The notes beneath the pieces are model-generated. The model saw nothing but the letters and a program-made list of their open reading frames with translations, was not told where the DNA came from and did no database searches. From Candidatus Edwardsiibacteriota bacterium (GTDB lineage: Bacteria > Edwardsbacteria > AC1 > EtOH8), in NCBI GenBank assembly GCA_025453955.1, contig JALOPJ010000003.1, positions 1 through 57,468 on the forward strand: DNA of 57,468 bases. The letters are read 5' to 3'. This document shows positions 10,849 to 31,253 of this stretch, piece after piece (the stretch's first letter is position 1; each line of letters opens with the position of its first letter). The translations under genes and the position numbers were made by a program.

Positions 10849-10924
10849 TGGAGCCGACGAAGGGATTTGAACCCCCGACCTGAGCTTTACGAAAGCCCTG
10901 CTCTACCAGCTGAGCTACGTCGGC
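10849..10924 (-). tRNA. tRNA-Thr (anticodon CGT)
   Basis: Intact cloverleaf on the minus strand: acceptor GCCGACG/CGTCGGC, D arm with AGCTGGTAGA, anticodon stem GGGCT/AGCTC with loop TTCGTAA (anticodon CGT), T arm GGGGGTTCAAATCCC and encoded CCA (10849-10851). Its 5' 41 bases are repeated exactly at 24507-24547, marking it as the insertion target of an island. Confidence 0.95.
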
Positions 10925-10928
10925 TTGA
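10884..10928. repeat. Left 45-bp direct repeat (putative att site)
   Basis: Identical to 24507-24551. It spans the tRNA-Thr 5' end to the first bases of the 3' anticodon-stem strand, plus four bases upstream of the gene. Homology stops abruptly inside the anticodon arm, as expected for site-specific crossover there. Confidence 0.75.
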
Positions 10929-11014
10929 TGATAGAATCCAAAGGGTTAGATCCAGGACGCCCGTTTGATAGGTCTCAATGAGTGTCCAGAATGTGGCCAT
11001 CGTACGAACACAGC

Positions 11015-11043
11015 ATTTTACCATTTTTACACGCGATTGTCAA
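11015..11043 (-). promoter_or_regulatory. Promoter of tRNA-Thr (and probably glmM-glmS)
   Basis: TTGACA (11038-11043), 17-base spacer, TAAAAT (11015-11020) on the minus strand, giving a start about 82 bases before the tRNA. The same elements with the same spacing recur at 24638-24666. If the island boundary is right, this promoter came in with the island. Confidence 0.75.
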
Positions 11044-11100
11044 ACCCGTTTCAAGTATATTATCCACTGCAACAACGTGCCCGCGGCACCAACGACAATA

Positions 11101-11130
11101 AAGCCCGCGAGCGGTAAAGCTCGGGGGCTT
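11101..11130 (-). terminator. Terminator at the left end of the island
   Basis: Arms AAGCCCGCGAGC / GCTCGGGGGCTT with one mismatch and a 6-base loop, followed by TTTATTG on the minus strand. A related hairpin stands at 24723-24752. It would end the island transcript after the ZIP gene. Confidence 0.65.
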
Positions 11131-11296
11131 GTGAGGACCGGGTGGTGTGTTGATGGGGGTTCTAGTAATGGGCGGGGCTCGATATCCTTCACCCCCTCCC
11201 GATAGCGGCAATGATGGCCTTGAGTAAAATCCTGGTTTCCTGAGTAATGGTAATAGTGTTTTCTGCCCGCCGATAGGCGATCGGTTACAAAAACAA

Positions 11297-12040
11297 CTAT
11301 ATACCGAAAATCCCCATTAGAAAAAGCATGCTGACAACGCCGGCGATGATACCCAATGGAGTGAAGTGCTCATGGCCATGTTTATGGGCGAATGGCACCA
11401 ACTCGTCAAGCGTGATGAAGATCATCACTCCTCCGGCAAATGACAACGCGGTCGGCACGATCCCCTGGAACGGCCGCAGCAACAGAACGGCCAGGGTCGC
11501 GCCCACCGGCTCGGCCAAGCCAGATAGAAACGCCAATGCAACCGCCTTCCTCTTGGAAGCTCCTCCCATGAACACCGGAACTGCCACCGCTATCCCCTCG
11601 GGGAAATTATGGGCGGCCACCGCCAATGCCACGAACACGCCGAGCGCCGGCGTGTGCAGATAACCAGCGCCGACGGCGATCCCCTCCGGGATGTTGTGCA
11701 GGGTGATGCCGGCCGCGATCAGGAGTCCCGTATTCACCATGCTGGAGCGTTTGCGGCCATTTTCCCTGACCGCGAAGCGGATGTGGGGTATCAGAATGTC
11801 CAACGCGAACATCAACAGGGCCCCGGCCGTAAACCCGATTGTGGCGACCATGAACCCCGAATGCTCCTGGGATTCGAATACCAGCCCGAACGCGAGGGCG
11901 ATCATGACCCCCGCGGTGAATCCCATCAGGAAACCGAACAGGTGTTCCCCCGGTTTGCGGATGATGGCTATCAGGCCGCCCAGGCCGGTCGCCAAGCCTG
12001 CGAGCAAACTGATGAAGATGATGTTAAGGAAGTCGGGCAT
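11297..12040 (-). CDS. ZIP-family divalent metal transporter
   Basis: 247-residue inner-membrane protein with about eight hydrophobic segments. The two metal-binding helices carry HNIPEGIAVG and HNFPEGIAVAVP, the ZIP (ZupT-like) signatures, and a His-rich loop HKHGHEHF lies before the last helix. The family imports Zn, Fe or related divalent ions into the cytoplasm; the exact metal is unknown. I prefer the ATG at 12040; a GTG two codons upstream is possible and neither has a clear ribosome site. It is the last gene of the island, separated from the peroxiredoxin gene by a terminator, so it may have its own promoter. It fits an island centred on metal cofactors. Confidence 0.9.
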   Translation of the reverse strand: MPDFLNIIFISLLAGLATGLGGLIAIIRKPGEHLFGFLMGFTAGVMIALAFGLVFESQEHSGFMVATIGFTAGALLMFALDILIPHIRFAVRENGRKRSSMVNTGLLIAAGITLHNIPEGIAVGAGYLHTPALGVFVALAVAAHNFPEGIAVAVPVFMGGASKRKAVALAFLSGLAEPVGATLAVLLLRPFQGIVPTALSFAGGVMIFITLDELVPFAHKHGHEHFTPLGIIAGVVSMLFLMGIFGI

Positions 12041-12142
12041 TATCACGCTGTCGTTCGTTCATACGTAGATTACACTGAATCGGAAAGGAATGCAAGCGAT
12101 TTCCGATCCGCACGATGGTGTTCATGGTTCGGCGATGAGAAA

Positions 12143-12163
12143 ACGGGCCGTTCATCGGCCCGT
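12143..12163 (-). terminator. Terminator after the peroxiredoxin gene
   Basis: Perfect arms ACGGGCCG / CGGCCCGT with a 5-base loop, then TTTTC on the minus strand. Lies 42 bases past the peroxiredoxin stop. Confidence 0.8.
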
Positions 12164-12204
12164 CAGTTTCGTCCTCAGGGTGAACACCCTCATGATCAGG
12201 CGGC

Positions 12205-12930
12205 TTACTTCTTCCCACCCTTCCTGACCGCTTCCGTCACTTTCTCCAGCGGCAGCTTCTTGGTGCAGAAGAACCAGTCGTAGCACTTCATGTCCTCCTT
12301 GCCCTCCATCCGCTGCTTGGCGACGCCGCAGGAACCGGCCGTCGGCACGATGACATCATCCCCCGGCTGCCAGTCGGCGGGCATGGCCACCGAATAAGCA
12401 TCGGCGGTCTGCAATGCCACAACCACCCGGTACAGTTCCGCGAAGTTCCGCCCCAGGCTCAGGGGATAATAGACGATGGCGCGGATGATCCCCTTGGGGT
12501 CGATGAAGAACACCGCCCGCACCGCCTTGGTGCTGCTCTCGCCGGGCTGGATCATCCCGTACTTCCTGGCGACCTCCATGGTGATGTCCTCGATCAGGGG
12601 GAAGGTGACCTCGACGTTCTTCATCCCCTTGTACTCGATCTTCTCCTTGATGGTCCGCAGCCAGGCGATGTGGCTGTACAGACCGTCGATCGACAGACCG
12701 ACGACCTTGCAGTTGATCTCGGCGAACTTCGGCTCCATGGTGGCGAAGGTCATGAACTCCGAGGTGCAGACCGGGGTGAAGTCGGCCGGGTGCGAGAACA
12801 GGATCACCCAGCTGCCGGCGTACTGGTCCGGGAAGCTGATCTCGCCCTGGGTGGTCACCGCCTTGAACGACGGGGCCTTGTCGCCGATGCGGGGCATGGG
12901 GATGGCCTGGTTCTGGGTCGCCTGTTCCAT
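12205..12930 (-). CDS. Peroxiredoxin (Prx6 / archaeal 2-Cys type)
   Basis: 241-residue thiol peroxidase that reduces hydrogen peroxide and organic or peroxynitrite peroxides. The peroxidatic Cys55 is in PADFTPVCTSE. Three further Cys (201 in GSCGVAK, 216 and 222 in CYDWFFC) match the extended C-terminal arm of archaeal-type enzymes, where one acts as resolving Cys. The start MEQATQ is selected because AAGGAGG lies 7 bases upstream, although an upstream in-frame ATG exists. It sits near the end of the island operon behind the pyruvoyl decarboxylase and would protect oxygen-labile clusters. The electron donor is not encoded nearby. Confidence 0.93.
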   Translation of the reverse strand: MEQATQNQAIPMPRIGDKAPSFKAVTTQGEISFPDQYAGSWVILFSHPADFTPVCTSEFMTFATMEPKFAEINCKVVGLSIDGLYSHIAWLRTIKEKIEYKGMKNVEVTFPLIEDITMEVARKYGMIQPGESSTKAVRAVFFIDPKGIIRAIVYYPLSLGRNFAELYRVVVALQTADAYSVAMPADWQPGDDVIVPTAGSCGVAKQRMEGKEDMKCYDWFFCTKKLPLEKVTEAVRKGGKK

Positions 12931-12992
12931 GGTCGGTCCTCCTTGTTGAATATTAAGCTCGATTGTCATGGGGGATGCGATCTACCATCGTT

Positions 12993-13538
12993 TCATATAA
13001 GCATCATGGCCGCAGCGATCACCGTGGTCCACAGGCCGTTCTTGTTGCCCTCGGCCGACTGGACGCAGTTGGTGGTGCGGAAGATGTGGCCGGACGCCTT
13101 GTACACCTGCTTGCGCTCGTCCCAGGCCAAGCTGGGGTCCAGCGGGATGCCCAGGGTCGTCGCCAGCATCGTCGCCGCCAGGTCCTCGGCGTACTCGCCG
13201 GACATCTCCCCCTTCTCGCCGAACGCATGGTGCTCGGAGAGGTAGCCGTAGTGATGCTTGTCCACCGGGATGGCCAGGCCGATGGCCGAGGAAATCAGCC
13301 GATTGGGTTCGTTCGTCGCATTGGTGGCCATCACGCAGTAGACGATCTGCCCCGGCTTGATCTGCTTGAGGCCGTCGCCGCGGGGGATGATCCGGCAGTT
13401 GGGCGGAAAGATGCTGGAAACGTACACCAGGTTGCACATCTGGATGCCGGCGTTGCGCAGCGCCGCCTCGAAGCTGGACAGCTTCTCCCGGTGGACGCCC
13501 ACGCCCTTGACGAAGAAGATCTTCTGCGGGACCATCAT
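12993..13538 (-). CDS. Pyruvoyl-dependent arginine decarboxylase
   Basis: 181-residue proenzyme of the PvlArgDC family, which cleaves itself between two serines to make a pyruvoyl cofactor and decarboxylates arginine to agmatine. The cleavage site appears as YVSSIFPPN (Ser41-Ser42), with the conserved GQIVYCVMA and [10 protein letters not shown] segments after it. Length is normal. The start MMVPQKIF has AAGGA about 7 bases upstream; the open frame continues further upstream but without family similarity. The family is common in archaea and patchy in bacteria. Agmatine could feed polyamine synthesis or acid resistance. Why it sits in a metal-cofactor island is not evident. Confidence 0.9.
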
Positions 13539-13549
13539 CGTGCTTCCTT

Positions 13550-14374
13550 CTATGAAAAGTGGAACGAATCTCCCGACGTGCCGGGACGGACCCGGTCCCC
13601 GAACGCGCTGGTCAACGCATCGATCGCGTCCGTACCGGAGCAGTGGCACGGGACCACCATCGAGGGCCGGAACGCCTGCAGCGCCTCCACCGTCATCCTC
13701 AGCCGCCTATGATCCGCATTGCCGAGGTGAAACCCACCGATGACGGCATGCAGCTTCTCTGCGTGGGCTTCCCGTAGTGCGTTCTCGATTGTATTGATCA
13801 ATCCGGCATGGCTGCAGCCGGTAAGGACGACCAACCCATGACCGGTCTCCAGCCACATGGCCATGTCGTCCTCGATTGGGTCCGGAACCGTGCCCTCGGG
13901 ATCGAGGAAGAACGGGCCGCCCGTATCCTCGTAAGCGGTCCCCCTGGGTATGGGACCCGTCAAGCCGACGCCTGAGCAGACCGTTATCGCTTTCACCACC
14001 CACCGTTTTCGCTCAACCGGCAAGGCATCCAGAGTGTCGCGACATGGGCCCGGCATGCCGACCACCGTGCCCCCCCTGCTGCCGATACTGTACCGCTTCC
14101 GCGTCACTGCTGGATGGCAGTAGACGACGGACCCGGGGGCCAGCGACAGGGTACTATCCAGTCCGCCGGTATGATCGTAGTGCCCATGGCTGAGCACGAT
14201 GGCATCGGCTGTCGCCAGGTCAACGCCAGTTATCCGCGCGTTCTTTTCCACGACGCCGCCCTGGCCGGTGTCGAACAGAACATGGCGTTCCCCGGCATCG
14301 ACCCATAGGGAAAAACCGTGCTCCGCGGAAAGGCCAGGCCCTGGGCGGTCATCGACCAGAACGGTCATCCGCAT
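13550..14374 (-). CDS. MBL-fold metallohydrolase (RFAP-synthase-like subfamily)
   Basis: 274-residue metallo-beta-lactamase-fold protein. Metal ligands are seen in [11 protein letters not shown] (63-70), [11 protein letters not shown] (about 195) and GGFHLG (about 225), with a PCHCSG segment near 247. This arrangement matches the subfamily annotated as 7,8-dihydropterin-6-methyl-4-(beta-D-ribofuranosyl)aminobenzene-5'-phosphate synthase, whose true activity in bacteria is usually unknown. Members often sit beside NifX-like and MinD-like genes, as here, where NifX and Mrp genes are immediately upstream. Cytoplasmic. A role in cofactor or sulfur chemistry is inference. Confidence 0.82.
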
Positions 14375-14412
14375 GGTGCCATGTATCCTTGGCGATCAGC
14401 GGGCCCTGCTGC

Positions 14413-14751
14413 TTAGTGGTCGCAGGCGTTGCCGCCGGTCTGCAATGAACCGGCCAGGTAGTCTGTCACCAGCCGCTCCGGCGTCTCCGGTGGCGCGCCG
14501 ACTATCACCGTGATACCCTGCTCGGCGAACAACCCCTGGGCGCGGTGCCCCATGCCGCCGGCGATGATCATGGTCGCGCCCTTCCCCGCCAGCCAGCGCG
14601 GCAGCAGGCCCGGCTCATGCGGCGGTGCCTCGATGTCCTCCCGTTTGAGTATCGTCTTGTCTGCCGGGCTGGCATCGATCAGGGCAAAGCTCGCACAGTG
14701 CCCGAAATGCTGGGACAGTTTCCCGTCCGCCAGGGGGATCGCGATCTTCAT
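14413..14751 (-). CDS. NifX/NifB-C-terminal-like (dinitrogenase iron-molybdenum cofactor family) protein, copy A
   Basis: 112 residues with the RNase-H-like fold of FeMo-co-binding proteins: MKIAIPLADG, then LSQHFGHCASFALID with a His-Cys pair, IIAGGMGHRA and a Cys/His-containing tail. The family binds or carries Fe-S/Mo-type clusters; no nitrogenase genes are present here. The start is fixed by AGGAG 9 bases upstream; a longer in-frame extension lacks similarity. It lies directly after the Mrp carrier and NifU-like scaffold genes. A second family member is encoded at 22111-22473 in the same island, so each may serve one of the two MinD ATPases. Confidence 0.9.
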   Translation of the reverse strand: MKIAIPLADGKLSQHFGHCASFALIDASPADKTILKREDIEAPPHEPGLLPRWLAGKGATMIIAGGMGHRAQGLFAEQGITVIVGAPPETPERLVTDYLAGSLQTGGNACDH

Positions 14752-14767
14752 GCCGGTATGCTCCTTT

Positions 14768-15682
14768 TCATTTGATTGTTCCGCTTGCGACGGGCGCTTG
14801 CCGTTCGCAGGTGGCGATGAGCGGGTCAATGATGCCCCGCATGATCACGGCGGTCGCCGTGGACTGATGGTGCCGCATGAACGCGCGGCCGGCATCGCCG
14901 GTCTCGGCCACTGCCGGGTCGATGGGGATCGATCCGAGGAACGGTATCCCCATGTCGCGGGCGATCGCTTGCCCGCCGCCGGAACCGAGGATCGGTGTGA
15001 CCTCCCCGCATTTCGGGCAGGCGAACCCGCCCATGTTTTCCACGATGCCCAGCACCGGGACCCCGATCAGCCGACAGAAGGTGATGGATTTCCGGACATC
15101 CACCGTGGCCACCTTCTGGGGTGTGGTGACGATCACCGCGCCGTCCGGCTGCGCCAGCTGGCAGACCGAGAGCGGTTCGTCCCCGGTGCCAGGCGGAGAA
15201 TCGATGATCAGGTAATCCAGCTCACCCCAGGCGACATCCTGCAGGAATTGCTTGATCACCGTGGTCTTCATCGGGCCCCGCCAGATCACGGCGTTGTCCT
15301 GGTTCTCCAGGAAGAAGCCGATCGACACGACCTTGATCCCGTCAATCTCGACCGGTCTCATCTCCCCGTCGGGGCCGGCAACCATCCGCCCCTCCAGTCC
15401 CAGCATGGTGGGGATGCTCGGGCCGTGGATGTCGATGTCCAGCAATCCCACGCGTTTCCCCGCCGCCGCCAGCGCCGCGGCCAGGTTGACGGCCACGGTG
15501 CTCTTGCCCACCCCTCCCTTGCCCGACAGCACGACCACCGTGTGCTGGATGCAGCACAGCCGGGCCTGCAGTTTCTGACGGTCCTTGAAATCCTCGTCGC
15601 TCTCACCCTGCTTGCGACGGGCAGCAGCGCAGGTGCCGTTCCCGCAGGTGCCACAGGTTTTTGGCGCATCACTGGAGCTCAT
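14768..15682 (-). CDS. mrp: Mrp/NBP35-family Fe-S carrier ATPase
   Basis: 304-residue P-loop ATPase that transfers [4Fe-4S] clusters to apoproteins. Deviant Walker A SGKGGVGKST (53-62), switch regions DIDIHGPSIP and DSPPGTGDE, and a CPKCG pair in the C-terminal third that bridges a cluster in the dimer. The N-terminus adds a CGTCGNGTC patch, as in NBP35-type proteins, giving a second possible cluster site. The start overlaps the end of the NifU-like gene by 4 bases, with AGAGG upstream. Together with that scaffold it forms a build-and-deliver pair. Confidence 0.95.
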   Translation of the reverse strand: MSSSDAPKTCGTCGNGTCAAARRKQGESDEDFKDRQKLQARLCCIQHTVVVLSGKGGVGKSTVAVNLAAALAAAGKRVGLLDIDIHGPSIPTMLGLEGRMVAGPDGEMRPVEIDGIKVVSIGFFLENQDNAVIWRGPMKTTVIKQFLQDVAWGELDYLIIDSPPGTGDEPLSVCQLAQPDGAVIVTTPQKVATVDVRKSITFCRLIGVPVLGIVENMGGFACPKCGEVTPILGSGGGQAIARDMGIPFLGSIPIDPAVAETGDAGRAFMRHHQSTATAVIMRGIIDPLIATCERQAPVASGTIK

Positions 15683-16074
15683 GAATGGCCTCTCTTCCGC
15701 TGCGAATGGGACCGGCATGCCGCCTTGAGGGTATTGGATGCCAACAGCGCGCAATGCTCGAGTTCCGGGGGCAACCCGCCGAGCGCCTGCAGGATGTCCT
15801 GTTGTCCCACGACCGCGGCATCTGCGAGCGGCTTGTCCTCTGCCAGCGTCGTCGCCATGCTGCCGCAGGCCAGGGAAGAACCGCAGCCGTCGGTGATGAA
15901 CGATATTCTCTGGATCCGCCCGTCCTTGACCGTCAGCCAGAATTCCATGGTGTCCCCGCACGGGCCGGTGATGCAGGCATGCCCGTCGCTGCCGCCATTG
16001 GGGCCATAATTGCGCGGAAACATCGCATGGTCCTTGGCCACGTCCGAAAAGACCTTGAAATCACCGCTGGTCAT
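15679..16074 (-). CDS. NifU/IscU-like iron-sulfur scaffold protein
   Basis: 131 residues resembling the NifU N-terminal/IscU domain on which Fe-S clusters are assembled. Candidate ligands are Cys39 in GPCGDTMEF, Cys64 in DGCGSSLACGS and Cys108 in EHCALLA, which align with the three conserved IscU cysteines; extra Cys34, Cys70 and Cys120 are present. The start overlaps the stop of the MinD-ferredoxin gene (ATGA) and the stop overlaps the Mrp start, so the three are translationally coupled. No IscS/SufS cysteine desulfurase is encoded in the window; the nearby PLP C-S lyase could supply sulfur, which is inference. Confidence 0.9.
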   Translation of the reverse strand: MTSGDFKVFSDVAKDHAMFPRNYGPNGGSDGHACITGPCGDTMEFWLTVKDGRIQRISFITDGCGSSLACGSMATTLAEDKPLADAAVVGQQDILQALGGLPPELEHCALLASNTLKAACRSHSQRKRGHS

Positions 16075-16982
16075 CGAGCCCTCTCCTCTCTGATCCCGAT
16101 GGCAGCCCATACGTTCCGGATGTCCTCTGCGCTGGGCGCGGCGGTCTCGATCACTGCCCGTCCTTCGATCTGCGCGGCGGTCACCGCGTGGTCGTACCGT
16201 ATCCGACCCGCGACCGTGGCCCCGGCTTGCCGCGCCCTGCCCTCGATGCGTTCCGACATGCCGGGATTCAGGTCCCACTTGTTGACGCAAACCGCGGTTG
16301 GGATGCAGAAATGCCTCGTCAAAGCCAGCACCCGGTCCAGGTCGTGCTCGCCCGAGACGGTGGGTTCGGTCACCACCAGGGCCTGGGTTGCTCCGGTCAG
16401 CGAGGCGATCACCGGGCAGCCGATGCCCGGCGGGCCATCCGTAATGATGACGGTTTTCCCGGCCTCCTGGGCCAGTATCCGGGCACGGCCCCGGACCAGC
16501 GACACCAGTTTCCCGGAGTTCTCGGCGGCCACGCCCAGCCGGGCATGCACCATCGGCCCGCAGCGGGTGTCCGACACGTACCATTCCCCATTGACCGTGG
16601 GGGCGAAGTCGATGGCCTGCTCGGCACAAAATCGCACACAAACACCACAGCCCTCGCAGGCGATGGGATCGATGCGGAAGGTTTTCGCCACCCGGCCGTT
16701 GCCGCAGCCGTCGAAGGAGATGGCATCGTAGCGGCACAGCTCTTCGCATTTGCCGCAGGCGATGCAGTGTCCGGCCCGGATGCGCGCCTTGCCGCCGCCG
16801 ATGAACTGGTGTTTCTCGACGATGCCGGGTTGCAGCACCAAATGCAGGTCCGCGGCGTCGACATCGCAATCCGCGATGACCACGCTGCCCGCCAGCACCG
16901 CGAATGAGGCTGCCAGGCTGGTCTTCCCGGTCCCGCCCTTTCCGCTGATGATGACAAGTTCCGCTGTCCGCCCGTCGTTCAC
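16071..16982 (-). CDS. MinD-superfamily ATPase with inserted 2[4Fe-4S] ferredoxin domain, copy A
   Basis: 303 residues. Walker A IISGKGGTGKTS near residue 13, then an inserted ferredoxin region (73-119) with CIACGKCEELC and CEGCGVCVRFC, then the P-loop ATPase core resumes with TDGPPGIGCP. This composite family occurs widely in anaerobes and is thought to couple ATP turnover to Fe-S or metallocofactor insertion; the reaction is not established. It is coupled by ATGA overlaps to the methyltransferase gene upstream and the NifU-like gene downstream. A paralogue is encoded at 20784-21617. Confidence 0.92.
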   Translation of the reverse strand: MNDGRTAELVIISGKGGTGKTSLAASFAVLAGSVVIADCDVDAADLHLVLQPGIVEKHQFIGGGKARIRAGHCIACGKCEELCRYDAISFDGCGNGRVAKTFRIDPIACEGCGVCVRFCAEQAIDFAPTVNGEWYVSDTRCGPMVHARLGVAAENSGKLVSLVRGRARILAQEAGKTVIITDGPPGIGCPVIASLTGATQALVVTEPTVSGEHDLDRVLALTRHFCIPTAVCVNKWDLNPGMSERIEGRARQAGATVAGRIRYDHAVTAAQIEGRAVIETAAPSAEDIRNVWAAIGIREERAR

Positions 16983-17650: not shown

Positions 17651-18821
17651 CGAACGCCTGCTGCAGGTCGGCGATCTGGTCCGCGACATCCTCGATCCCA
17701 ACCGAGAGACGGACCAGCCCGTCGCTGATTCCGATGGCCTCGCGTTCGGCCCGCGGAATCCCGGCATGGGTCATCGACGCCGGGTGCTCGATCAACGTCT
17801 CCACGCCGCCCAGCGAGACCGCCAGCGCGGCGAGATGCACCCGGTCCATCAACTTCCGGCCGGCATCCAGGCCCCCGCGCATCTCGAAACTGATCATCGA
17901 TCCGGGACCGCGCATCTGGCGTTTGGCCAATTCATACTGCGGATGGGACGGCAGGCCGATGTACCGGACCCAGGCGATCTCCGGCCGCTTCGTCAACCAG
18001 TCGGCGACTTCCTGTGCGTTCTGTTGGGCCTGCTCCACCCGCAGCGACAGGGTCTTGATGCCGCGGTGTACCAGGAATGCCTGGTGGGGGTCCATGTTGC
18101 AGCCCGTGGTCACCATGGCGTCCCGCAACCGGGCATACGTCTCCTTGCCCCCGGCGACCAGGATGCCGCCCACCAGATCGGCATGGCCGTTGACATACTT
18201 GGTGACGGAGTGCAGCACCACGTCCGCCCCGAGCAGCAACGGGTTCTGCAGGCAGGGGGACGCGAACGTGCTGTCCACCACCAGCACCGCGCCGTGCGAG
18301 TGGGCGATCTCGGCGGCAGCCTGGATGTCGGTGAGTTGCATCATGGGATTGGACGGGGTCTCGATGTAGACCATCTTGGTTTCCGGCCGCAGCGCCTTGA
18401 TGACGTTGGCGGTGTCCGAGGTGTCCACGTAGGTCGAGGCGACCCCGAAACGGGAGAAGTGCCGCTCCATCAGCAGCCGGGACGGCCCGTAGACCGAGGC
18501 GGTGCTGACCACATGGTCCCCCTGGCTCAGCAGGGCGAAATACGCCGTCATCACCGCGGCCATGCCGGAACTGGTCGCGACGCCGCCGACGCCGTGCTCG
18601 AGTTCGGCCACGCATTTTTCCAGCGCGTCGACGGTGGGGTTCCCGATCCTGGTGTAGATGTACCCCTCGGCCTTCTTGGCGAACCGGTCAGCGCCATTCT
18701 GCGCGTTCTCGAACGCGAACGTCGACGTCTGGTAGATCGGCGTCACGACGCTGCCGTAGGCGTCAGCCGCCATGCCGGCGTGCACCAGTTTCGTGTTCGT
18801 CCCCTTGTCGGCGGTATGCAT
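17640..18821 (-). CDS. PLP-dependent trans-sulfuration enzyme (cystathionine gamma-synthase / methionine gamma-lyase family)
   Basis: 393-residue fold-type I PLP enzyme. The lysine that binds PLP is in HSVTKYVNGHAD (about residue 200), with SSGMAAV and YIETPSNPMMQ upstream and RLSVGIED near the C-terminus. The cysteine typical of true methionine gamma-lyase is not seen in the YGPSR region, so the reaction (cystathionine synthase, cystathionine lyase or other C-S lyase) is open. It sits between FmdB-like and methyltransferase genes in an operon full of Fe-S proteins that lacks a canonical desulfurase, which makes a sulfur-donor role attractive. The ATG at 18821 has AAGGA further upstream than ideal; a GTG one codon earlier is possible. 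Confidence 0.92.
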   Translation of the reverse strand: MHTADKGTNTKLVHAGMAADAYGSVVTPIYQTSTFAFENAQNGADRFAKKAEGYIYTRIGNPTVDALEKCVAELEHGVGGVATSSGMAAVMTAYFALLSQGDHVVSTASVYGPSRLLMERHFSRFGVASTYVDTSDTANVIKALRPETKMVYIETPSNPMMQLTDIQAAAEIAHSHGAVLVVDSTFASPCLQNPLLLGADVVLHSVTKYVNGHADLVGGILVAGGKETYARLRDAMVTTGCNMDPHQAFLVHRGIKTLSLRVEQAQQNAQEVADWLTKRPEIAWVRYIGLPSHPQYELAKRQMRGPGSMISFEMRGGLDAGRKLMDRVHLAALAVSLGGVETLIEHPASMTHAGIPRAEREAIGISDGLVRLSVGIEDVADQIADLQQAFDAR

Positions 18822-18886
18822 CACGTTCCCATCCTTCCTATGATTATTTGACTGTTTCGTTTGCGATAGATTCATGGACACATCGT

Positions 18887-19147
18887 TCATTCGTCACATG
18901 ACGGCTTGCCGCACCGCTGGTCCCTGCCGCAGCAGGTCCTGCCGGTCGTTTCCAGCGAGCAGCCGCCGGTTTTACGCCGTGAGGTGTCACCCCCGCCGCC
19001 CTTGAGGATAAAACCGACGCCCCCGCTGATGAGCCGGGTAACCTGACCACCGCACTCCGGGCATTGGGTCAACGCTTTCTCCGATATGGCCTGTTGCCGG
19101 GCGATTCTTTTACCGCATGAGGAGCATTCGTATTCGTATGTGGGCAT
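18887..19147 (-). CDS. FmdB-family zinc-ribbon protein
   Basis: 86 residues. N-terminal zinc ribbon of the FmdB type: MPTYEYECSSCGK followed by CPECGG, then a Gly-rich linker and a Cys-rich tail (GGCSLETTGRTCC, CGKPSC). The family is annotated as putative regulatory protein, from linkage to formamidase genes, without a proven mechanism. The start MPTYEYE matches the family N-terminus; a GTG two codons upstream also exists. Within the island it precedes the C-S lyase gene. The tail cysteines could bind a metal or cluster. Confidence 0.85.
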   Translation of the reverse strand: MPTYEYECSSCGKRIARQQAISEKALTQCPECGGQVTRLISGGVGFILKGGGGDTSRRKTGGCSLETTGRTCCGRDQRCGKPSCDE

Positions 19148-19230
19148 TTTCACGTCTTTCTGTCGCTGATGGAATTGTCCGGTTGGACACTCGGCAAAGA
19201 TCTACTACCACACCTCGCTGTGGCCGTCCC

Positions 19231-19986
19231 TTACTGGTCGCGAAAGCACCACCGCTCGCGTCCCATCAGTCCGCAAAATCCGGCGGCGGTGATTCCGTAG
19301 AGCACGAGCCTCTTCCCTGCACTGCTCGTCAAGTGCATAATTTCATCGTACGTTCCGTTTACTAGCGTCGTGCCGGTGGCGATGATCAAATCCGAAGATC
19401 GGATCAATTCAGCGGTCTTGGCCCTTCCGTCCCAAATCCGGACCCCGGACCGTTGCCTGCCGATGCTGTTTGGATTAAGGTCGGTCATCAATACATTGAT
19501 CGTCCCGAATTCTTGGATCAACGCGTCGGCGATTGCGGGATTCAACCCGATCAGGCCGATTGTTCGTATCCCAAGACGTCGGGCCGAGGCGGCGATCTCT
19601 GTTGCGCAGAGCTCGGGGGATTCATCCTTACAGTGGGTGGTCCCTTCGACGATGCCCAGCCGCTCCAATACTGCGTTGGACACCGCCAGGAAGATCGCCC
19701 GATCACTGGCGGCCGTAAGCGCCATGGACATTACCTCATCCAGCCTACCCATGTAGTTGACTGGCGAATCGGTAAACGCCTGCCCTCTGGACCCGGAAAC
19801 CTCCGCCTCGATGACGCGCTCCTTCCCCTCGATAATCGGATAATCCCTGCGCAAGGGGTCACCGATGGCCTCCTGGGGCGTCAGCGGCTTGACCGTGACC
19901 AGCACTTCGGCATCGTTCAGCGCGTGGCTGTCGACCACCGCCCGGAGTTTCTCTCGGAACAACTCGATGGCGGCCGGTCCGTTCAC
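19231..19986 (-). CDS. DUF364-like Rossmann-fold protein (putative heavy-metal chelatase)
   Basis: 251 residues. Contains MGRLDEVMSMAL, then GTTHCKDESPELCA, a Rossmann-like IGLIGLNPAIADAL, DLNPNSIG and a closing GITAAGFCGLMG segment, which together resemble DUF364. The family is described as a possible metal chelatase or metal-binding regulator; no reaction is proven. The GTG start overlaps the stop of the TauE-like gene (GTGA), the best evidence for this start, because the frame stays open further upstream. Cys in THCKDESPELC could be ligands. Confidence 0.75.
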   Translation of the reverse strand: MNGPAAIELFREKLRAVVDSHALNDAEVLVTVKPLTPQEAIGDPLRRDYPIIEGKERVIEAEVSGSRGQAFTDSPVNYMGRLDEVMSMALTAASDRAIFLAVSNAVLERLGIVEGTTHCKDESPELCATEIAASARRLGIRTIGLIGLNPAIADALIQEFGTINVLMTDLNPNSIGRQRSGVRIWDGRAKTAELIRSSDLIIATGTTLVNGTYDEIMHLTSSAGKRLVLYGITAAGFCGLMGRERWCFRDQ

Positions 19987-20774
19987 GGCATGCCCTTCAA
20001 CCCGGTGATGATGAACTGGGCAGACACCCACAGGAACACCAGGCCGAAGAGCAGCATCAACATTCGCGACGGTGCCCGGTGGTTGATGACGGCCCCCAGT
20101 TGCGATCCGGCCAGGCATCCCAGGCAGATCGGCACGGCCGGGCCCGGATCGACGTAGCCTTGGGCGTATTTGATCCCTGCGCTGATGAAGGCATTGGCGC
20201 AGAAACAGACGAGCGCGGAGCCGATCGCAACCTTGACGGGATTCCCGAAGAAATACCGGAAGGCGGGCACCAGAACCGCACCGGTGCCGATCCCAAACAG
20301 GCCGGGCAGAATGCCGGCGATCCCGCCCAAGACAACCTTGCCGGCCGCCGTGCCGTGGATCGTCCCCGTCGACAGCATATCATCGGGAACATCGTTCTTT
20401 TTCGACACAATATCCCAGATTATGCGCAAAGACAGTATTGAAAAAACACAACCGATGCCGAGGTCAAGCCAATGCCCACGCCTAGCTAATTGGAGAAAAA
20501 GAATCGAAAAGAAAAGGGTCGATACGGCTCCGCTGATGATCACCGGCAATAAACCTCGAAGGGGCACGTGCCCCAGGCGATAATGCTTGATTCCGCCGCC
20601 CAAAGTCGTGAAGAACACCGCAGCGACCGTGGTCCCGGCCGCGGCAGCGGGCGAAAGACCGATAAAAAATCGCAGGACCGGCATCAGGATGATGCCGCCG
20701 CCGATGCCCAGCAATCCCCCCAGCAGGCCGGCGGAGAACCCGATGATCAATAGAACAAGCCAGGTATCAGCCAT
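19983..20774 (-). CDS. TauE/SafE-family membrane transporter
   Basis: 263-residue polytopic inner-membrane protein with about eight hydrophobic helices in two similar halves, each starting with a Gly-rich motif (GLLGIGGGIILMP and GLFGIGTGAVLVP). The family exports sulfite, sulfonates or other small sulfur-containing anions. AGGTCAGGAT stands before the ATG. It is placed between a MinD-ferredoxin gene and the DUF364 gene and could remove sulfite or another sulfur by-product of the C-S lyase or cluster assembly; substrate not determined. Confidence 0.88.
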   Translation of the reverse strand: MADTWLVLLIIGFSAGLLGGLLGIGGGIILMPVLRFFIGLSPAAAAGTTVAAVFFTTLGGGIKHYRLGHVPLRGLLPVIISGAVSTLFFSILFLQLARRGHWLDLGIGCVFSILSLRIIWDIVSKKNDVPDDMLSTGTIHGTAAGKVVLGGIAGILPGLFGIGTGAVLVPAFRYFFGNPVKVAIGSALVCFCANAFISAGIKYAQGYVDPGPAVPICLGCLAGSQLGAVINHRAPSRMLMLLFGLVFLWVSAQFIITGLKGMP

Positions 20775-20783
20775 ATCCTGACC

Positions 20784-21617
20784 TCAGATCCCTGTTCGTA
20801 TCGACTGCCACAACCGGGTGAATACGGTCCGGTAGTCGGGCAGCGCGTCGACCATCAGCTCGCCACGGGAGTAGGCCTCGGCGATCCGCCGGTCGTCGGG
20901 GATCTCGGCCAGGATGGGGATACCCTGCTCCCGGCAGTACGCCTGCCCCCGGTCGTCTCCGGAACCCGCCCGGTTGACGACCACTCCGAACGGCAGTTTT
21001 AATTCCCGGACCAGATCCACGGCCAACGTCAGGTCATGCAGGCCGAAAGGAGTCGGCTCGGTGACCAGCAGCACGTACTGAGCGCCCCGGAGTGTGGCGA
21101 CTACCGAACAGGACGTTCCCGGCGGCGCGTCCAGTATCGCCGGTCGGTCAGCCGCCAGACGGGACTTGACCGCGCGGATCAGCGGCGGCACCAGGGATAC
21201 GCCGACGTCCAGCCGCCCCTGCACCAGCGTGATGTCGCCGGCATCCACGGTCTCGACGACCCCGATCCGGCGCTCGGCCTCGCTGACCGCCTGCTTCGGG
21301 CAGACCAGAACGCACCCGCCGCAGCCATGGCACAGCTCCGCAAAGACCATGGGCACCGGCTTGACCGCGGCGATGGCATGGTACTGGCAGAAACGGCCGC
21401 ACTCGCCGCAGCAATCGCATTTCGCCGCGTCGATCTCCGGGACCATGGTGGAAATGATATGCTGCTCCCGCAGCGTACCGGGCAGGAACAAGTGGGCGTT
21501 CGGTTCCTCGACGTCGCAGTCGGCCACCTGAACCGGTGATCCCAGCGTGCGGGCCAGATTCACGGCAATAGTGGTCTTGCCGGTGCCCCCCTTGCCCGAA
21601 GCTACCGCGAGAATCAT
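20784..21617 (-). CDS. MinD-superfamily ATPase with inserted ferredoxin domain, copy B
   Basis: 277 residues with the same plan as copy A: Walker A ASGKGGTGKTT (about 6-16), a ferredoxin insertion (67-107) with CDCCGECGRFC and CHGCGGCVLVC, then DAPPGTSCSV and the rest of the ATPase core. In copy B the first cluster motif begins CDCC, so one extra Cys is available. The start ATG overlaps the TGA of the TrmO-like gene. Two such ATPases with two NifX-like partners suggest a paired or sequential cofactor-handling machine; known cases often encode the two ATPases side by side, whereas here six genes separate them. Confidence 0.92.
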   Translation of the reverse strand: MILAVASGKGGTGKTTIAVNLARTLGSPVQVADCDVEEPNAHLFLPGTLREQHIISTMVPEIDAAKCDCCGECGRFCQYHAIAAVKPVPMVFAELCHGCGGCVLVCPKQAVSEAERRIGVVETVDAGDITLVQGRLDVGVSLVPPLIRAVKSRLAADRPAILDAPPGTSCSVVATLRGAQYVLLVTEPTPFGLHDLTLAVDLVRELKLPFGVVVNRAGSGDDRGQAYCREQGIPILAEIPDDRRIAEAYSRGELMVDALPDYRTVFTRLWQSIRTGI

Positions 21618-22114
21618 GGCGTGCCACCGCCGCGATAACCCCGCTGCCCCCGTTTCAGCGCAGTCTCTTCGTCCACCTCGTCCTGCCAACCGTTGCGGGT
21701 CGTATGGATGTGGTCGAACTTTTCGGAATAGGGTTTGATGTCCAGCAGCGGCGTGCCGTCCAGGATGTCTGCTCCATCGAACTGCAGGTTGTTGCCATCG
21801 ACCTTGACCAGTTCCACCACGCTCAGACCGATGGGATTAGGCCGCCAGGGTGACCGAGTGGAGAAAATGCCGTGTTCGACATCCTGCAGGAACGGTCTCG
21901 CGATCAGCTTGCCGGGGCCGGCCTGGTGCAGATGGTAGATCAGATAGATATGAGAGTAGCCGTCGAGATCCTTAAGCCCCTGGGCGAACTCAGGGAAAAT
22001 CTCGGCGCGGCCCAGGCACCCCTTGGCATAGGCTGGCTGGATCGGTGTTTCTTCGGCTTTTACGTGGCAGCTGCGGATGATGCCGATCGGACGAAAGCAG
22101 ATCGAATCGCTCAA
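21614..22114 (-). CDS. TrmO/TsaA-like SAM-binding protein
   Basis: 166 residues of the TsaA/YaeB (TrmO) family. Seen: FRPIGIIRS at the start, HLHQAG, the strongly conserved FSTRSPWRPNPIGLSVVEL and GTPLLDIKPY. E. coli TrmO methylates N6-threonylcarbamoyladenosine in tRNA-Thr. The start is probably TTG, overlapping the stop of the NifX-like gene (TTGA); no ATG lies in the conserved region. The C-terminal domain of E. coli TrmO is missing, so this is the short type often found beside NifX genes, whose substrate may differ. The link to tRNA-Thr in an island inserted in tRNA-Thr is curious but may be chance. Confidence 0.85.
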   Translation of the reverse strand: MSDSICFRPIGIIRSCHVKAEETPIQPAYAKGCLGRAEIFPEFAQGLKDLDGYSHIYLIYHLHQAGPGKLIARPFLQDVEHGIFSTRSPWRPNPIGLSVVELVKVDGNNLQFDGADILDGTPLLDIKPYSEKFDHIHTTRNGWQDEVDEETALKRGQRGYRGGGTP

Positions 22115-22473
22115 ACCCAGTGCCCCTCGACGTTGGATGATTCCGCCTCTGGCAGCTTGCCGGACAAATAGCGCTGGAGCGCCTCGGTCACCGTCGGCGC
22201 ATCGCAGTTGTACACTTTCACCCCGGCCGATCGCAGCACTTGGAACGCCTTCGGTCCGCAGTGGCCGGTGACCAGGGCCTGGGCCCCGGACTGCGCCACC
22301 GTGGTCGCCGACTGGATGCCGGCACCCTGGGCGGCATTCAGGTTCTGCTGGTTGTCGATCACCGAGAATGTCTCGGCTTCCAGGTCATACACCAGGAACT
22401 TGGGCGCGCGGCCGAACCGGCTGTCCAGCGGTGAGCTGAGCTGGTCACCCGATGTCGTGAATGCAATCTTCAT
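22111..22473 (-). CDS. NifX/NifB-C-terminal-like protein, copy B
   Basis: 120 residues of the dinitrogenase iron-molybdenum cofactor family: MKIAFTTSGDQLSSPLDSRF, GRAPKFLVYD, ALVTGHCGPKAF and a short acidic tail ending VEGHWV. Compared with copy A it has the GHCGP cluster-binding loop and a longer C-terminus. The TrmO-like gene starts inside its stop codon. It probably binds or delivers a cluster to MinD copy B two genes downstream. No nif structural genes are nearby, so the cofactor is not necessarily nitrogenase-related. Confidence 0.9.
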   Translation of the reverse strand: MKIAFTTSGDQLSSPLDSRFGRAPKFLVYDLEAETFSVIDNQQNLNAAQGAGIQSATTVAQSGAQALVTGHCGPKAFQVLRSAGVKVYNCDAPTVTEALQRYLSGKLPEAESSNVEGHWV

Positions 22474-22506
22474 GTGCCTCCATCCTCAATATGAGATGAT
22501 CGTTGT

Positions 22507-22947
22507 TCAGTTGTAGTCCTTCTGGATGTCATCGGCCTCGTTCATCAGCGGTCCAGCTAATTCCTTCATCGCAGCGTCATTCCAAAACGGCAGTCGGCGG
22601 TGTACGTCCATGTATTTCTGCGGGATAGGATGGGTGCCGATGACGACGGGCAGGCCGTACCGCTCCTCGATGAAGGCCTTGAACGGGCGGATATTGGGAC
22701 AGGGCGGATACCCGACCACCATCCCGGTCGCCAGATGGATGGCCTGGGCTCCGTTTTTCATCATCTCCTCGGGCACGTACTCGACATTGCCGCCGGGACA
22801 GCCGCCGCAACTCGAATACCCCACGACCTCGACCGGCTCGCCGGCAGGATACCTCGCAAACCCGCCCTTCCGCTCGCGGATCGAGCGAAAACATTTGCCG
22901 CCGCCGCAGCCCTGGTAGCGATGACAGGTAATGATGCCGATCTTCAT
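22507..22947 (-). CDS. CGGC-domain protein
   Basis: 146 residues with many Cys: CHRYQGCGGGKC near the start, then YSSCGGCPGG, which is the motif that names the family, and a later YPPCPNI. The family is a putative metal-binding domain of unknown function, common in anaerobes and often next to NifX-like genes. A hairpin pair (22978-23048) separates it from the DUF5320 gene upstream, which may change its expression relative to fur. No catalytic motif is recognised. Confidence 0.85.
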   Translation of the reverse strand: MKIGIITCHRYQGCGGGKCFRSIRERKGGFARYPAGEPVEVVGYSSCGGCPGGNVEYVPEEMMKNGAQAIHLATGMVVGYPPCPNIRPFKAFIEERYGLPVVIGTHPIPQKYMDVHRRLPFWNDAAMKELAGPLMNEADDIQKDYN

Positions 22948-22977
22948 ATCCCCTCCGTCTCAGCGTATTAGGGAACA

Positions 22978-23048
22978 ATCTGCCACGGGTGCATGCATCG
23001 CAGGCACCCGTGGCAGATCGTGCTTTCAATGACCGCGCGATGCGGTCA
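22978..23048 (-). promoter_or_regulatory. Tandem intercistronic hairpins inside the island operon
   Basis: First: perfect 15-bp arms ATCTGCCACGGGTGC (22978-22992) and its complement (23004-23018) with an 11-base loop. Second: TGACCGC / GCGGTCA (23030-23036, 23042-23048) with a 5-base loop. No strong T run follows, so they look more like mRNA-processing or partial-termination signals than a full terminator. They lie between DUF5320 and CGGC genes. Confidence 0.65.
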
Positions 23049-23067
23049 CCACAGTCTGGTCTGGAGC

Positions 23068-23430
23068 TTACTTGCCCTTGGTTTCCTCTCCGGTGCCAAG
23101 CTCCGTCAACCGCGTCTTGATGGAATCCAACGCGGATTGCATGGCATCAGCCTGAGCCCTCAGCGCCCGGCGTTCCTGTTCGGGCGTGATGGCCGGGGCA
23201 GCGGGCGCATTGCCACCGAAGCGCATCCAGCCGGGCAGGCCGGTGGCAAAGAACTGGTGCCGCCATCCACGGCCACCGCCGCCGAAGCCTCGCCCATAAC
23301 CTCCCCGGCCCATGCCCCTTCCCGATCCGTTGTTCGCGAATCCCGCCATCTTGTTCCCTGCGCAGAAACCTGCTCCACGCCCCGTCATCGGTCCCATCCC
23401 CATGGGTCCGGTTCCATCACCTCTCGGCAT
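23068..23430 (-). CDS. DUF5320-family small protein, copy A
   Basis: 120 residues. The N-terminal half is Gly/Met/Arg-rich with MPRGDGTGPMGMGPMTGRGA and a single Cys in FCAGN, the usual DUF5320 opening. The C-terminal third (EQERRALRAQADAMQSALDS onward) is predicted coiled coil. Function unknown; the family is repeatedly linked with NifX-like and MinD-like genes. It follows the zinc-ribbon gene and precedes two hairpins. A relative lies outside the island at 25297-25506. Confidence 0.85.
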   Translation of the reverse strand: MPRGDGTGPMGMGPMTGRGAGFCAGNKMAGFANNGSGRGMGRGGYGRGFGGGGRGWRHQFFATGLPGWMRFGGNAPAAPAITPEQERRALRAQADAMQSALDSIKTRLTELGTGEETKGK

Positions 23431-23460
23431 AGCAGTACTCCTTTATCTGGTTGATTGTTT

Positions 23461-23649
23461 TTACTCCTGCCTTCTGAGAGAGATCCCGCACTTCGGGCAC
23501 TGCCGGTGGTTGCAGGGTACTCCCCGCTGATGAGGTTCGCGGTAGCCACAAACCGGACAGACGCAGAATCCTCCCGGCCCATGCTTCTTGGGATCTTCGC
23601 TTCCCGCGGCGTGGAGTCTATCGTCATGTTCGCCGAGACGGTCTTTCAT
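23461..23649 (-). CDS. Small zinc-ribbon protein
   Basis: 62 residues with CVCPVCGY and CPKCG pairs and the intervening PHQRGVPC, so a small zinc or iron ribbon with up to six Cys. Such proteins recur beside DUF5320 and NifX-like genes; no function is known. It begins 10 bases after the fur stop and belongs to the fur transcript. The ribosome site is weak, so the exact start is uncertain. Confidence 0.72.
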   Translation of the reverse strand: MKDRLGEHDDRLHAAGSEDPKKHGPGGFCVCPVCGYREPHQRGVPCNHRQCPKCGISLRRQE

Positions 23650-23659
23650 CGCCGCGAGT

Positions 23660-24154
23660 TCACTTCGTATCGGTTCGCGAATCGTCCGGAGTGCGTTTCT
23701 GGCATCCCGGGCAAGTGCCGTAGAACGACATGTCGTGATCGGTGACCTGGTATTTGTACTTCATCGCCAGATGCTGCTCCAGTTTATGCACCAGCGTCAG
23801 TTCGTCATCCTCGAAGTCCATGTAGTTGATCACCTGGCCACACTGACGGCAGATAAGGTGATGATGGTGATCCGGCCCCCCGGCCTTATGATTCAATTCG
23901 TAGCGGGATTTGCCATCGCCGACGTCGATCGATTTGATATGTCCCCCGGACCGCAGCAATTCCAAGTTCCGGTACACCGTGGCCAACCCGATCCCGGGCA
24001 TATTATCGCGGACGTGGAGGAATATTTCGTCAGCGCTGAGGTGGCCTGGTTTGCTGGCCAATGTCTTATAAATGGCTTCCCGGGGTGCCGTCATCCTGAA
24101 TCCGCAGCCAAGCCCCCGCCAGCCATGATTGCCATGTCTACAAGGTCGGGGCAT
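23660..24154 (-). CDS. fur: Fur-family metal-responsive repressor
   Basis: 164 residues. Winged-helix DNA-binding part (about 20-90) with MTAPREAIYKTL, LSADEIF and ATVYRNLELL; then the metal-binding part with the HHHHLICRQCG stretch and a second CPGC pair, giving the structural Zn(Cys)4-type site. Start ATG at 24154 has AGAGG close upstream. The promoter in front is a perfect sigma70 consensus overlapped by Fur-box hexamers, so the protein most likely represses itself and the 18 genes behind it. Whether it senses iron, zinc, manganese or peroxide (PerR) cannot be read with certainty; the box sequence favours iron. Confidence 0.93.
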   Translation of the reverse strand: MPRPCRHGNHGWRGLGCGFRMTAPREAIYKTLASKPGHLSADEIFLHVRDNMPGIGLATVYRNLELLRSGGHIKSIDVGDGKSRYELNHKAGGPDHHHHLICRQCGQVINYMDFEDDELTLVHKLEQHLAMKYKYQVTDHDMSFYGTCPGCQKRTPDDSRTDTK

Positions 24155-24163
24155 ATAACCTCT

Positions 24164-24190
24164 TAATGATTATAATTATCATTATCATTA
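24164..24190 (-). promoter_or_regulatory. Fur-box array
   Basis: On the minus strand the region reads as successive GATAAT-like hexamers (TAATGATAATGATAAT then TATAATCATTA), close to the classic 19-bp GATAATGATAATCATTATC box. It starts in the -10 hexamer and continues past the transcription start of fur, an ideal repressor position. Confidence 0.8.
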
Positions 24191-24215
24191 TACACAAGCG
24201 AATAGCATTTGTCAA
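24187..24215 (-). promoter_or_regulatory. Consensus sigma70 promoter of the fur-led island operon
   Basis: TTGACA (24210-24215), 17 bases, TATAAT (24187-24192) on the minus strand: an exact consensus match. Start near 24180, 26 bases before the fur ATG. Confidence 0.9.
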
Positions 24216-24275
24216 GGGGATAATGAGTGTTTTTTAATGATGCTTTCGGAAAGCCCGCCAAGGACAAAATGGCGT

Positions 24276-24310
24276 AAAAATACCCCTCAGCGAGCAAGCT
24301 GCGGGGGTAT
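24276..24310 (-). terminator. Terminator between the truncated tRNA copy and the fur promoter
   Basis: Nested arms ATACCCC/GGGGTAT and CAGC/GCTG with loop GAGCAA, followed on the minus strand by TTTTTA. It would stop a transcript coming from the promoter at 24638-24666 before it reaches fur. Confidence 0.8.
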
Positions 24311-24370
24311 GAACCATCTTGGGAGGATATCGATGGCTTCTAAACCATGAATAATTGATCAGCCATGTTT

Positions 24371-24389
24371 GGTGTCCAAAAAGTGTCCA
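24371..24389. repeat. GGTGTCC direct repeat, copy 1
   Basis: GGTGTCCAAAAAGTGTCCA; differs in one base of 19 from 24604-24622, and a more diverged copy is at 10981-10999. Each copy holds two GTGTCC half-sites 10-11 bases apart. Might be an integrase or excisionase arm site; inferred from location only. Confidence 0.5.
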
Positions 24390-24506
24390 CTTGTAGGCCA
24401 AAATAGGTTTAAATCTACTTAAAGTATATGTTCAATAACAAAGCGTATCTTATGACATGCAGTTGTAATGCTGATTATTGCAAATACCTGTATTTTCGAT
24501 GGTTTT

Positions 24507-24547
24507 GCTTTACGAAAGCCCTGCTCTACCAGCTGAGCTACGTCGGC
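24507..24547 (-). pseudogene. Truncated tRNA-Thr copy (5' half only)
   Basis: Identical to the first 41 bases of the intact tRNA-Thr at 10849-10924 (acceptor 5' strand, D arm, anticodon stem 5' strand and loop with CGT), then unrelated DNA. It still has an intact promoter upstream, so a half-tRNA transcript is possible. Cannot fold to a tRNA. Confidence 0.85.
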
Positions 24548-24551
24548 TTGA
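24507..24551. repeat. Right 45-bp direct repeat (putative att site)
   Basis: Exact copy of 10884-10928; marks the right boundary of the island. Similarity continues rightward at a lower level through the promoter and terminator. Confidence 0.75.
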
Positions 24552-24603
24552 GTTTGGATCCGAATGGTTTACACACCGGACACTGCATTCCGTAGATCTC
24601 CAT

Positions 24604-24622
24604 GGTGTCCAAAATGTGTCCA
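24604..24622. repeat. GGTGTCC direct repeat, copy 2
   Basis: GGTGTCCAAAATGTGTCCA, 18 of 19 bases as in 24371-24389. The two copies flank the truncated tRNA. Confidence 0.5.
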
Positions 24623-24637
24623 TCCACCTAACACATT

Positions 24638-24666
24638 ATTTTACCATTTTTTAGTGCGCTTGTCAA
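24638..24666 (-). promoter_or_regulatory. Second tRNA-Thr-type promoter
   Basis: TTGACA (24661-24666), 17 bases, TAAAAT (24638-24643) on the minus strand; same elements and distance to the tRNA start as at 11015-11043. Probably the original chromosomal promoter, now reading into the half tRNA. Confidence 0.75.
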
Positions 24667-24722
24667 ACATGTTTCAGCTGCTCCCGAGTACCGATCATCT
24701 GCCCCTGCGCGCACGAATGAAA

Positions 24723-24752
24723 AAGCCCCCGAGCGGCGAGGCTCAAGGGCTT
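24723..24752 (-). terminator. Terminator of the PadR efflux operon
   Basis: AAGCCCCCGAGC / GCTCAAGGGCTT arms with two mismatches, TTTTT after it on the minus strand and TTTTTT on the plus strand. Related to the hairpin at 11101-11130. Confidence 0.75.
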
Positions 24753-24772
24753 GTGCGTTTTTTGACGGATTA

Positions 24773-25225: not shown

Positions 25226-25296
25226 CCCGCCCGGATGGCAATCACAGGATCGTGAATATTTTCTGCATGGTCTTCTCCTTCCGTTGGTTATTTCTG

Positions 25297-25506: not shown

Positions 25507-25542
25507 GTGAACACCCCCTTTCATTCTATCTGTAGTTTGTCG

Positions 25543-28730: not shown

Positions 28731-28757
28731 GCTGTGCTCCTGTATATTTGGTAGTTG

Positions 28758-29021: not shown

Positions 29022-29048
29022 CGTTCCCTCCATCAGTTGTTGTTGCGG

Positions 29049-31201: not shown

Positions 31202-31253
31202 CGGTAGGTGCGCATGCGCTGACAGTCGGGACAGCCAGTTCTGATAATGCCTG

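Follow-up and report, generated by a model that had tools for sequence, protein, structure and literature searches.

A Fur gene and an ORP-type iron-sulfur operon on a predicted island in the tRNA-Thr gene of an uncultured bacterium

Can a run of metal-related genes behind a Fur promoter, lying beside a tRNA gene, be a self-contained and movable iron-responsive system, and if so, is that system a new one? The question is raised by a 57,468-nucleotide stretch of DNA (the window; contig JALOPJ010000003.1 of assembly GCA_025453955.1) from an uncultured Candidatus Edwardsiibacteriota bacterium, whose positions 10884-24551 were described in an earlier note, made from the letters alone, as a portable, tRNA-bounded and Fur-controlled metallocofactor island and a candidate new system. 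Our analysis of the sequence indicates that this DNA is a 13.6-kb island inserted in a tRNA-Thr gene, and that its cargo is an iron-sulfur (Fe-S) operon of the orange protein (ORP) type together with a Fur repressor of its own. The insertion, the gene families, the promoter with its Fur box and the linkage of Fur to the operon are read directly in the DNA. The tRNA gene, its fragment and the genes, promoters and terminators of the island lie on the reverse strand.

The Fur gene and 18 genes of the same orientation (12205-24154), plus a ZIP gene, make up the 20 genes of the island, and they stand between an intact tRNA-Thr(CGT) gene (10849-10924; delimited with ARAGORN, by repeat comparison and from an empty site) and an exact repeat of the 41-bp 5' half of that gene (24507-24547, 41/41 identical). 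Both copies of the 5' half have about 250 bp of diverged homology upstream, with a terminator and a promoter, at 10925-11260 for the proximal copy (promoter TTGACA-17-TAAAAT) and at 24548-24758 for the distal one. The single other genome of the source genus in the comparison (G001, 94% complete) has the empty site: its right flank (window 24.76-37.7 kb), tRNA and PMM gene are joined without the island, albeit with a 2-N scaffold gap inside the tRNA exactly at the insertion spot, and no close copy of the island gene for MinD1 was found anywhere in that genome. The native tRNA upstream region of G001 resembles the distal copy (82-85% identity) more than the proximal one (about 72%). The distal half-tRNA is therefore the displaced native 5' half, marking the island's distal end, and the proximal promoter and 5' half (10884-10924) were brought by the island and joined to the native 3' half. 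An island that enters tRNA-Thr in this manner would restore the tRNA using its own promoter and 5' half. Islands of the Islander type likewise have a regenerated tRNA and a displaced fragment at their ends, with a repeat that stops in the anticodon stem; the present one differs in its 5' fragment, the less common orientation (159/3919 islands in Islander; PMC4383910), in an extra 250-300 bp of upstream homology and in its lack of an integrase gene within the island. Two tRNA genes as boundaries were considered and rejected, the tRNA-Gly at 2033 being uninvolved, and so the description as tRNA-bounded holds for this island only in the sense of one tRNA-Thr and its own fragment. Portability fares better, given the empty site in G001, the patchy presence of the module (4/10 genomes of the family) and the stacking of insertions at one tRNA. 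A TGGACAC...TTGGACACC motif occurs upstream of the distal tRNA copy (window 24611-24622) and again within the island's distal end (24378-24389), and the region upstream of the proximal copy has a degenerate version of it (10988); these motifs are possibly recombinase arm sites.

The same tRNA gene appears to have received DNA more than once. In three relatives (G003, G005 and G009) tRNA-Thr has the PMM gene on one side and, on the other, DNA that matches the lgt region (window 32.3 kb); in the source genus an extra 7.5 kb (24.55-32.05 kb) intervenes there, with an LTXXQ protein, a MacAB-like exporter, an ArsP-like permease and PadR. A second tRNA 5' fragment follows directly on lgt in G001 (L069:5663-5701, 35/39 bases), and at this place the window has a tRNA-like remnant that has decayed (31995-32048, 25/39 bases). 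At least two insertions thus appear to be stacked at tRNA-Thr, with window 24552-32048 as the older insert; the genes examined in the two of them include no recognizable integrase. Sequences resembling a decayed tRNA 5' end (GCCGCTGTAGCT...) also lie about 75 bp upstream of the intact tRNA-Thr of G003 and G005 (L074 and L073) and are possibly further insertion scars. G006 has a full PMM gene (L070, from 8515 onward) and, some 2 kb upstream, a second copy of its first 46 bp (L070:6404-6449); no tRNA-Thr was found at this site.

A hot spot with stacked inserts could also have gathered metal and stress genes by chance, so that they lie together on the island as loose cargo and not as a single functional unit, and several of the accessory genes are indeed not conserved neighbours elsewhere. 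The arrangement of the genes speaks against this. Families were checked with Pfam, at its curated cut-offs, and with NCBIfam; every family named in the earlier note was recovered above its Pfam cut-off except a 62-residue zinc-ribbon protein, which has no match in either collection, and the layout of Fur plus 18 co-oriented genes of those families stands. Within the unit that runs from fur to the peroxiredoxin gene (prx), six junctions are overlaps of exactly 4 bp and one is an overlap of 11 bp, the coding density is 95%, and the genes follow one strong promoter. A strong hairpin with a T run closes the unit after prx (12140-12190, fold -22.8 kcal/mol), and another hairpin terminator stands between the tRNA fragment and the fur promoter (24262-24312). 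Because terminators flank it in this way, the unit looks like a single operon that is shielded from the upstream tRNA promoter, and one long fur-to-prx transcript is predicted. The ZIP metal transporter gene (11297-12046; PF02535), which had been taken as the terminal gene of the series, is present in the island, but the hairpin after prx places it outside the main operon as a separate transcription unit.

Is the core of this operon new? MinD1 (20784-21617; invariant P loop and eight Cys) and MinD2 (16071-16982; two CxxCxxCxxxC motifs) are ferredoxin-MinD ATPases resembling Orp3/Orp4, each with two 4Fe-4S motifs, and NifX1 (22111-22473; PF02579) is an orange-protein-like, Orp8-like protein whose best match in the PDB is the Desulfovibrio gigas orange protein 2WFB (7.7e-23). 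Mrp (14768-15682; PF10609), an N-terminal P-loop NTPase half, and NifX2 (14413-14751), a C-terminal Di-Nase half, jointly cover the MrpORP model NF041136 as a split pair (positions 4-256, 4.8e-112, and 265-365, 5e-37), with scores of 375 and 128 bits that are each under the 450-bit cut-off; both domains match their respective halves of the model, but here they are encoded by two adjacent genes. The ORP system of D. vulgaris (DVU2103-DVU2109) has the same two ferredoxin-MinD ATPases, orange-protein-like NifX and Mrp with a Di-Nase domain, a likeness drawn from families, motifs and the published description. Since this composition corresponds to the known ORP/MrpORP proteins, the core is best regarded as an ORP-type module, a known but poorly understood system, and to call it a candidate new system was too strong; the differences lie in its regulator, in its larger set of genes and in its place on an island. 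The D. vulgaris system consists of sigma54-controlled divergent operons with a fused, two-domain MrpORP (Orp9) and a [2Fe-2S] protein, Orp5 (PMC6345978, PMC3897727), whereas here we find a single Fur-headed operon behind a sigma70-type promoter with a Fur box, a split MrpORP, an extra NifU, about ten accessory genes and a tRNA island. The module thus appears to be built, and probably works, like an ORP module, although as a strict member it departs from the description in two features, the fusion and sigma54 control. No nifHDK, nifEN or nifB was found among the island genes in the Pfam scan, the genome as a whole not having been searched for these.

The D. vulgaris MrpORP hands Fe-S clusters to aconitase and to apo Orp3-Orp4-Orp8, proteins of the Orp8 type are reported to carry an S2MoS2CuS2MoS2 cluster, and the ORP complex has been described as putatively linked to cell division, MrpORP being polar in D. 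vulgaris (PMC6345978). Each of the latter two observations suggests another function for the module. With NifX1 closest to the D. gigas protein, and with a DUF364 protein in the operon whose Pfam label is putative heavy-metal chelation, the module might build or sequester a Mo-Cu thiometallate cluster, as in D. gigas ORP, for metal storage or detoxification and not for Fe-S supply; this we think improbable, given that the Pfam scan assigns no island gene to a transporter or sensor of Mo or Cu, that the regulator and its box are of the iron type and that NifU and Mrp are Fe-S carriers. A role of the MinD-type ATPases in division or positioning, as proposed for the D. vulgaris complex, is hardly credible here: both proteins have ferredoxin inserts and are encoded beside Fe-S carriers under an iron-type regulator, and the island has no divisome gene.

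Control by iron is suggested by the promoter. The fur gene (23660-24154) heads the operon behind a TTGACA-17-TATAAT promoter that, with its overlapping Fur box, spans 24162-24215; the promoter proper (24215-24187) is the best sigma70-type match in the region, at 12/12 bases, and a Fur-box-like sequence overlaps its -10 element, the best 19-mer (24168-24186) matching at 17/19 bases, whereas 300 dinucleotide shuffles reached no more than 14. The overlapping Fur-box promoter that had been proposed is therefore borne out. Eight module-linked fur genes, from the source family, WOR-3, Clostridia, Omnitrophota and a further lineage, have a Fur box of 14-18/19 near the promoter where shuffles reach at most 14-15 (the 14/19 box of L135 is equalled by shuffles in 1%), and two fur genes inside clusters (L054 and L086) have no Fur box. 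In addition, feo genes adjoin two linked modules, with feoB next after the one in G007 and feoA-feoB ahead of fur in L102, and this supports the iron reading. Thus the proposal of Fur control, though still a prediction, gains from the boxes at linked fur genes in several phyla and from a dedicated type of linked Fur.

That type was recognized with a profile built from the eight linked Furs, in which downstream genes and boxes played no part. Run on 386 genomes, the profile separated a high-scoring class from ordinary Fur. On a strict count NifX, MinD or Mrp genes lie downstream of 21/24 further Furs of the linked type and of 1/16 ordinary Furs (Fisher p 3e-7), and a Fur box of at least 14 accompanies 21/24 and 5/16, respectively, though such p values are optimistic, since the 24 include close relatives of profile members (e.g. 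L232 and L102) and of one another. The remaining 3/24 have only DUF5320 or zinc-ribbon/MBL matches, one of them at a contig end. Like known Fur and PerR regulators, the linked Furs have a Fur fold with two CxxC zinc motifs (PF01475, 110 bits for the source protein; four Cys in 32/32), and they share with Fur the box and a Glu at one ligand, the PerR-Asp85 position (32/32), so that none has the paired Asp residues of PerR. They differ at another metal-site position, one that is occupied in Bacillus by Asp104 of PerR and by Glu in Fur and is held to decide peroxide access (PMC4866751): it is Asp in 26, Asn in 5, among them the source Fur, and Glu in 1 (Asp or Asn in 31/32), against Glu 14 and Asp 2 in the ordinary Furs. 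They differ further in their linkage to ORP-type modules and, in most cases, in a Cys/Trp/His-rich N-terminal extension. The linked Fur is thus apparently a distinct, autoregulated type, perhaps but not necessarily a single clade, and it appears to be undescribed. Neither the Fur-ORP link, nor the linked Fur type, nor the self-regulated island form was found in the open-access papers searched, a limited library and hence weak evidence of novelty; a 2004 reconstruction of the delta-proteobacterial Fur regulon lists feoAB and others, and 'NifX' and 'MinD' are not in its text. No Fur-family gene other than that of the module (L049:11307-11783) was found in G007, and none at all in G003 and G005, which belong to the same genus.

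The prevalence of Asp at the PerR-Asp104 position, and a peroxiredoxin gene at the end of the operon in the window and in G004, would suit a PerR-like regulator, with peroxide or oxygen oxidising the Fe(II)-protein and inducing an Fe-S repair operon that has its own peroxiredoxin, low iron being secondary. We consider this unlikely, because the other O-donor position is invariably Glu, the source Fur has Asn and not Asp, feo genes adjoin two linked modules, a peroxiredoxin gene lies near only 4 of 95 module loci, and the boxes carry TGA...TCA ends. Such ends mark Fur boxes as a box type. Derepression at low iron is the reading that we prefer, and oxidative input through the Asp/Asn site is possible beside it.

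How widely does the module recur? Clusters of MinD1, MinD2 and NifX were found across Bacteria and Archaea. Among 95 loci anchored on MinD1, whose own count is therefore no evidence, MinD2 is present in 93, NifX1 in 81, NifX2 in 60, Mrp in 44, DUF5320 in 40, the small zinc-ribbon protein in 30, NifU in 29, MBL in 19, FmdB in 13 and Fur in 10 (short contigs make these lower bounds), and when 20 control regions were searched in the same way, no family turned up more than once. Four of the ten genomes of the family have the module and the others lack it: besides the source genome, G007 has a nearly identical gene order at a different site, G004 a compact form and G002 the module in contig pieces. 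Such co-clustering, and a conserved order at another site, make the loose-cargo explanation very improbable. Of the joint occurrence that the earlier note had put forward as a check, the core and several accessories do recur together, and the tRNA boundaries do not, so that these were rejected as a general property of the module. In the MinD1 tree the family falls in a supported group with Propionivibrio, Smithella, an acidobacterial bin and Raymondbacteria, a grouping that is compatible with transfer between phyla without proving it. In the compact module of G004 (L051:13565-14879) nifU has an in-frame TGA and mrp is split over two frames, through decay or assembly error.

These findings are consistent with a Fur-repressed ORP-type operon, carried on an island in tRNA-Thr and induced at low Fe(II) for ATP-driven assembly and transfer of Fe-S clusters, and we judge this account probable. 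Fur binding, induction, the cluster chemistry and the targets are what we infer. Fe(II)-loaded Fur would bind the box over the -10 element of its own promoter and keep the operon off; when free Fe(II) drops, or the metal site of Fur is oxidised, the operon would be transcribed. NifU and Mrp would then build and carry Fe-S clusters, and Mrp with NifX2, as a split MrpORP, would load a MinD1-MinD2-NifX1 complex, in which the ferredoxin-ATPases may spend ATP and electrons to mature, store or repair Fe-S or mixed-metal centres. The C-S lyase, the TauE permease and ZIP possibly supply sulfur and metal. With 79 bits, the NifU/IscU-like scaffold (15679-16074; PF01592) scores below the family's housekeeping copies, which reach about 170. 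The source assembly has no other NifU and no SufBD, and since all nine relatives have a housekeeping NifU/IscU, the island protein is best seen as a divergent second copy; that the island is the cell's sole source of Fe-S scaffold was considered and rejected, incompleteness of the source bin (88% complete) being likely. SufB/SufD went undetected in all 10 family genomes, and 14/14 control genomes gave a match.

Several observations weigh against this account. No integrase is present among the 20 island genes (Pfam and NCBIfam; the rest of the genome was not searched), and no counterpart of Orp5 was identified among them, although no Orp5 sequence was compared. In the DNA available 85/95 MinD1-anchored loci have no linked Fur, so iron control is not general, and most linked Furs have a PerR-type Asp at the metal site. 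Finally, TauE, DUF364, the C-S lyase, ArgDC and ZIP are rare (0-2/95) at module loci outside the family and were rejected there as parts of a conserved module; the earlier note had named independent occurrence of the genes in relatives as a result that would tell against it, and this applies to these five only.

The accessory genes of the operon, in order of transcription after fur, begin with the small zinc-ribbon protein (23461-23649), which recurs beside MinD1, DUF5320 (23068-23430; PF17253) and a CGGC-domain protein (22507-22947; PF08821). Between NifX1 and MinD1 lies a TrmO N-domain protein (21614-22114; PF01980, TIGR00104); this short protein is recurrent in ORP-type clusters of several phyla (L081, L086, L089, L114 and L139), which hints at a role other than tRNA methylation. 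MinD1 is followed by the TauE/SafE permease (19983-20774; PF01925), DUF364 (19231-19986; PF04016), an FmdB-type zinc ribbon (18887-19147; PF09723, TIGR02605), a methionine gamma-lyase-like, pyridoxal phosphate-dependent C-S lyase (mgl, 17640-18821; PF01053, with TIGR01328 at 472 bits, under its cut-off) and a class I S-adenosylmethionine methyltransferase (mt, 16979-17650; PF08241). Beyond MinD2, NifU and the split MrpORP come a metallo-beta-lactamase-fold hydrolase (MBL; mbl, 13550-14374; PF00753), a protein of the pyruvoyl-dependent arginine decarboxylase family (argDC, 12993-13538; PF01862, TIGR00286) and the peroxiredoxin (12205-12930; PF00578, with NF009668 above cut-off).

What is new here, as far as the sequence indicates, would be the linked Fur type and the self-regulated island form, the core being already known. 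A broader generalization can be offered tentatively: a Fur with a hybrid Fur/PerR site could serve many bacterial lineages as the cognate repressor of their ORP-type modules, transferable with these and turning on Fe-S salvage or allocation when iron falls or the site is oxidised, and would have entered this genome by way of tRNA-Thr. What ORP proteins do in anaerobes is debated, and links to Fe-S transfer, a Mo-Cu cluster and cell division have all been put forward; a linked Fur whose own promoter is overlapped by a Fur box would give a direct and testable signal for when these proteins are needed. The locus further draws attention to a Fur type whose metal site has an unusual residue, and to the arrival of a whole metallocluster operon in a tRNA gene as a self-regulated unit.

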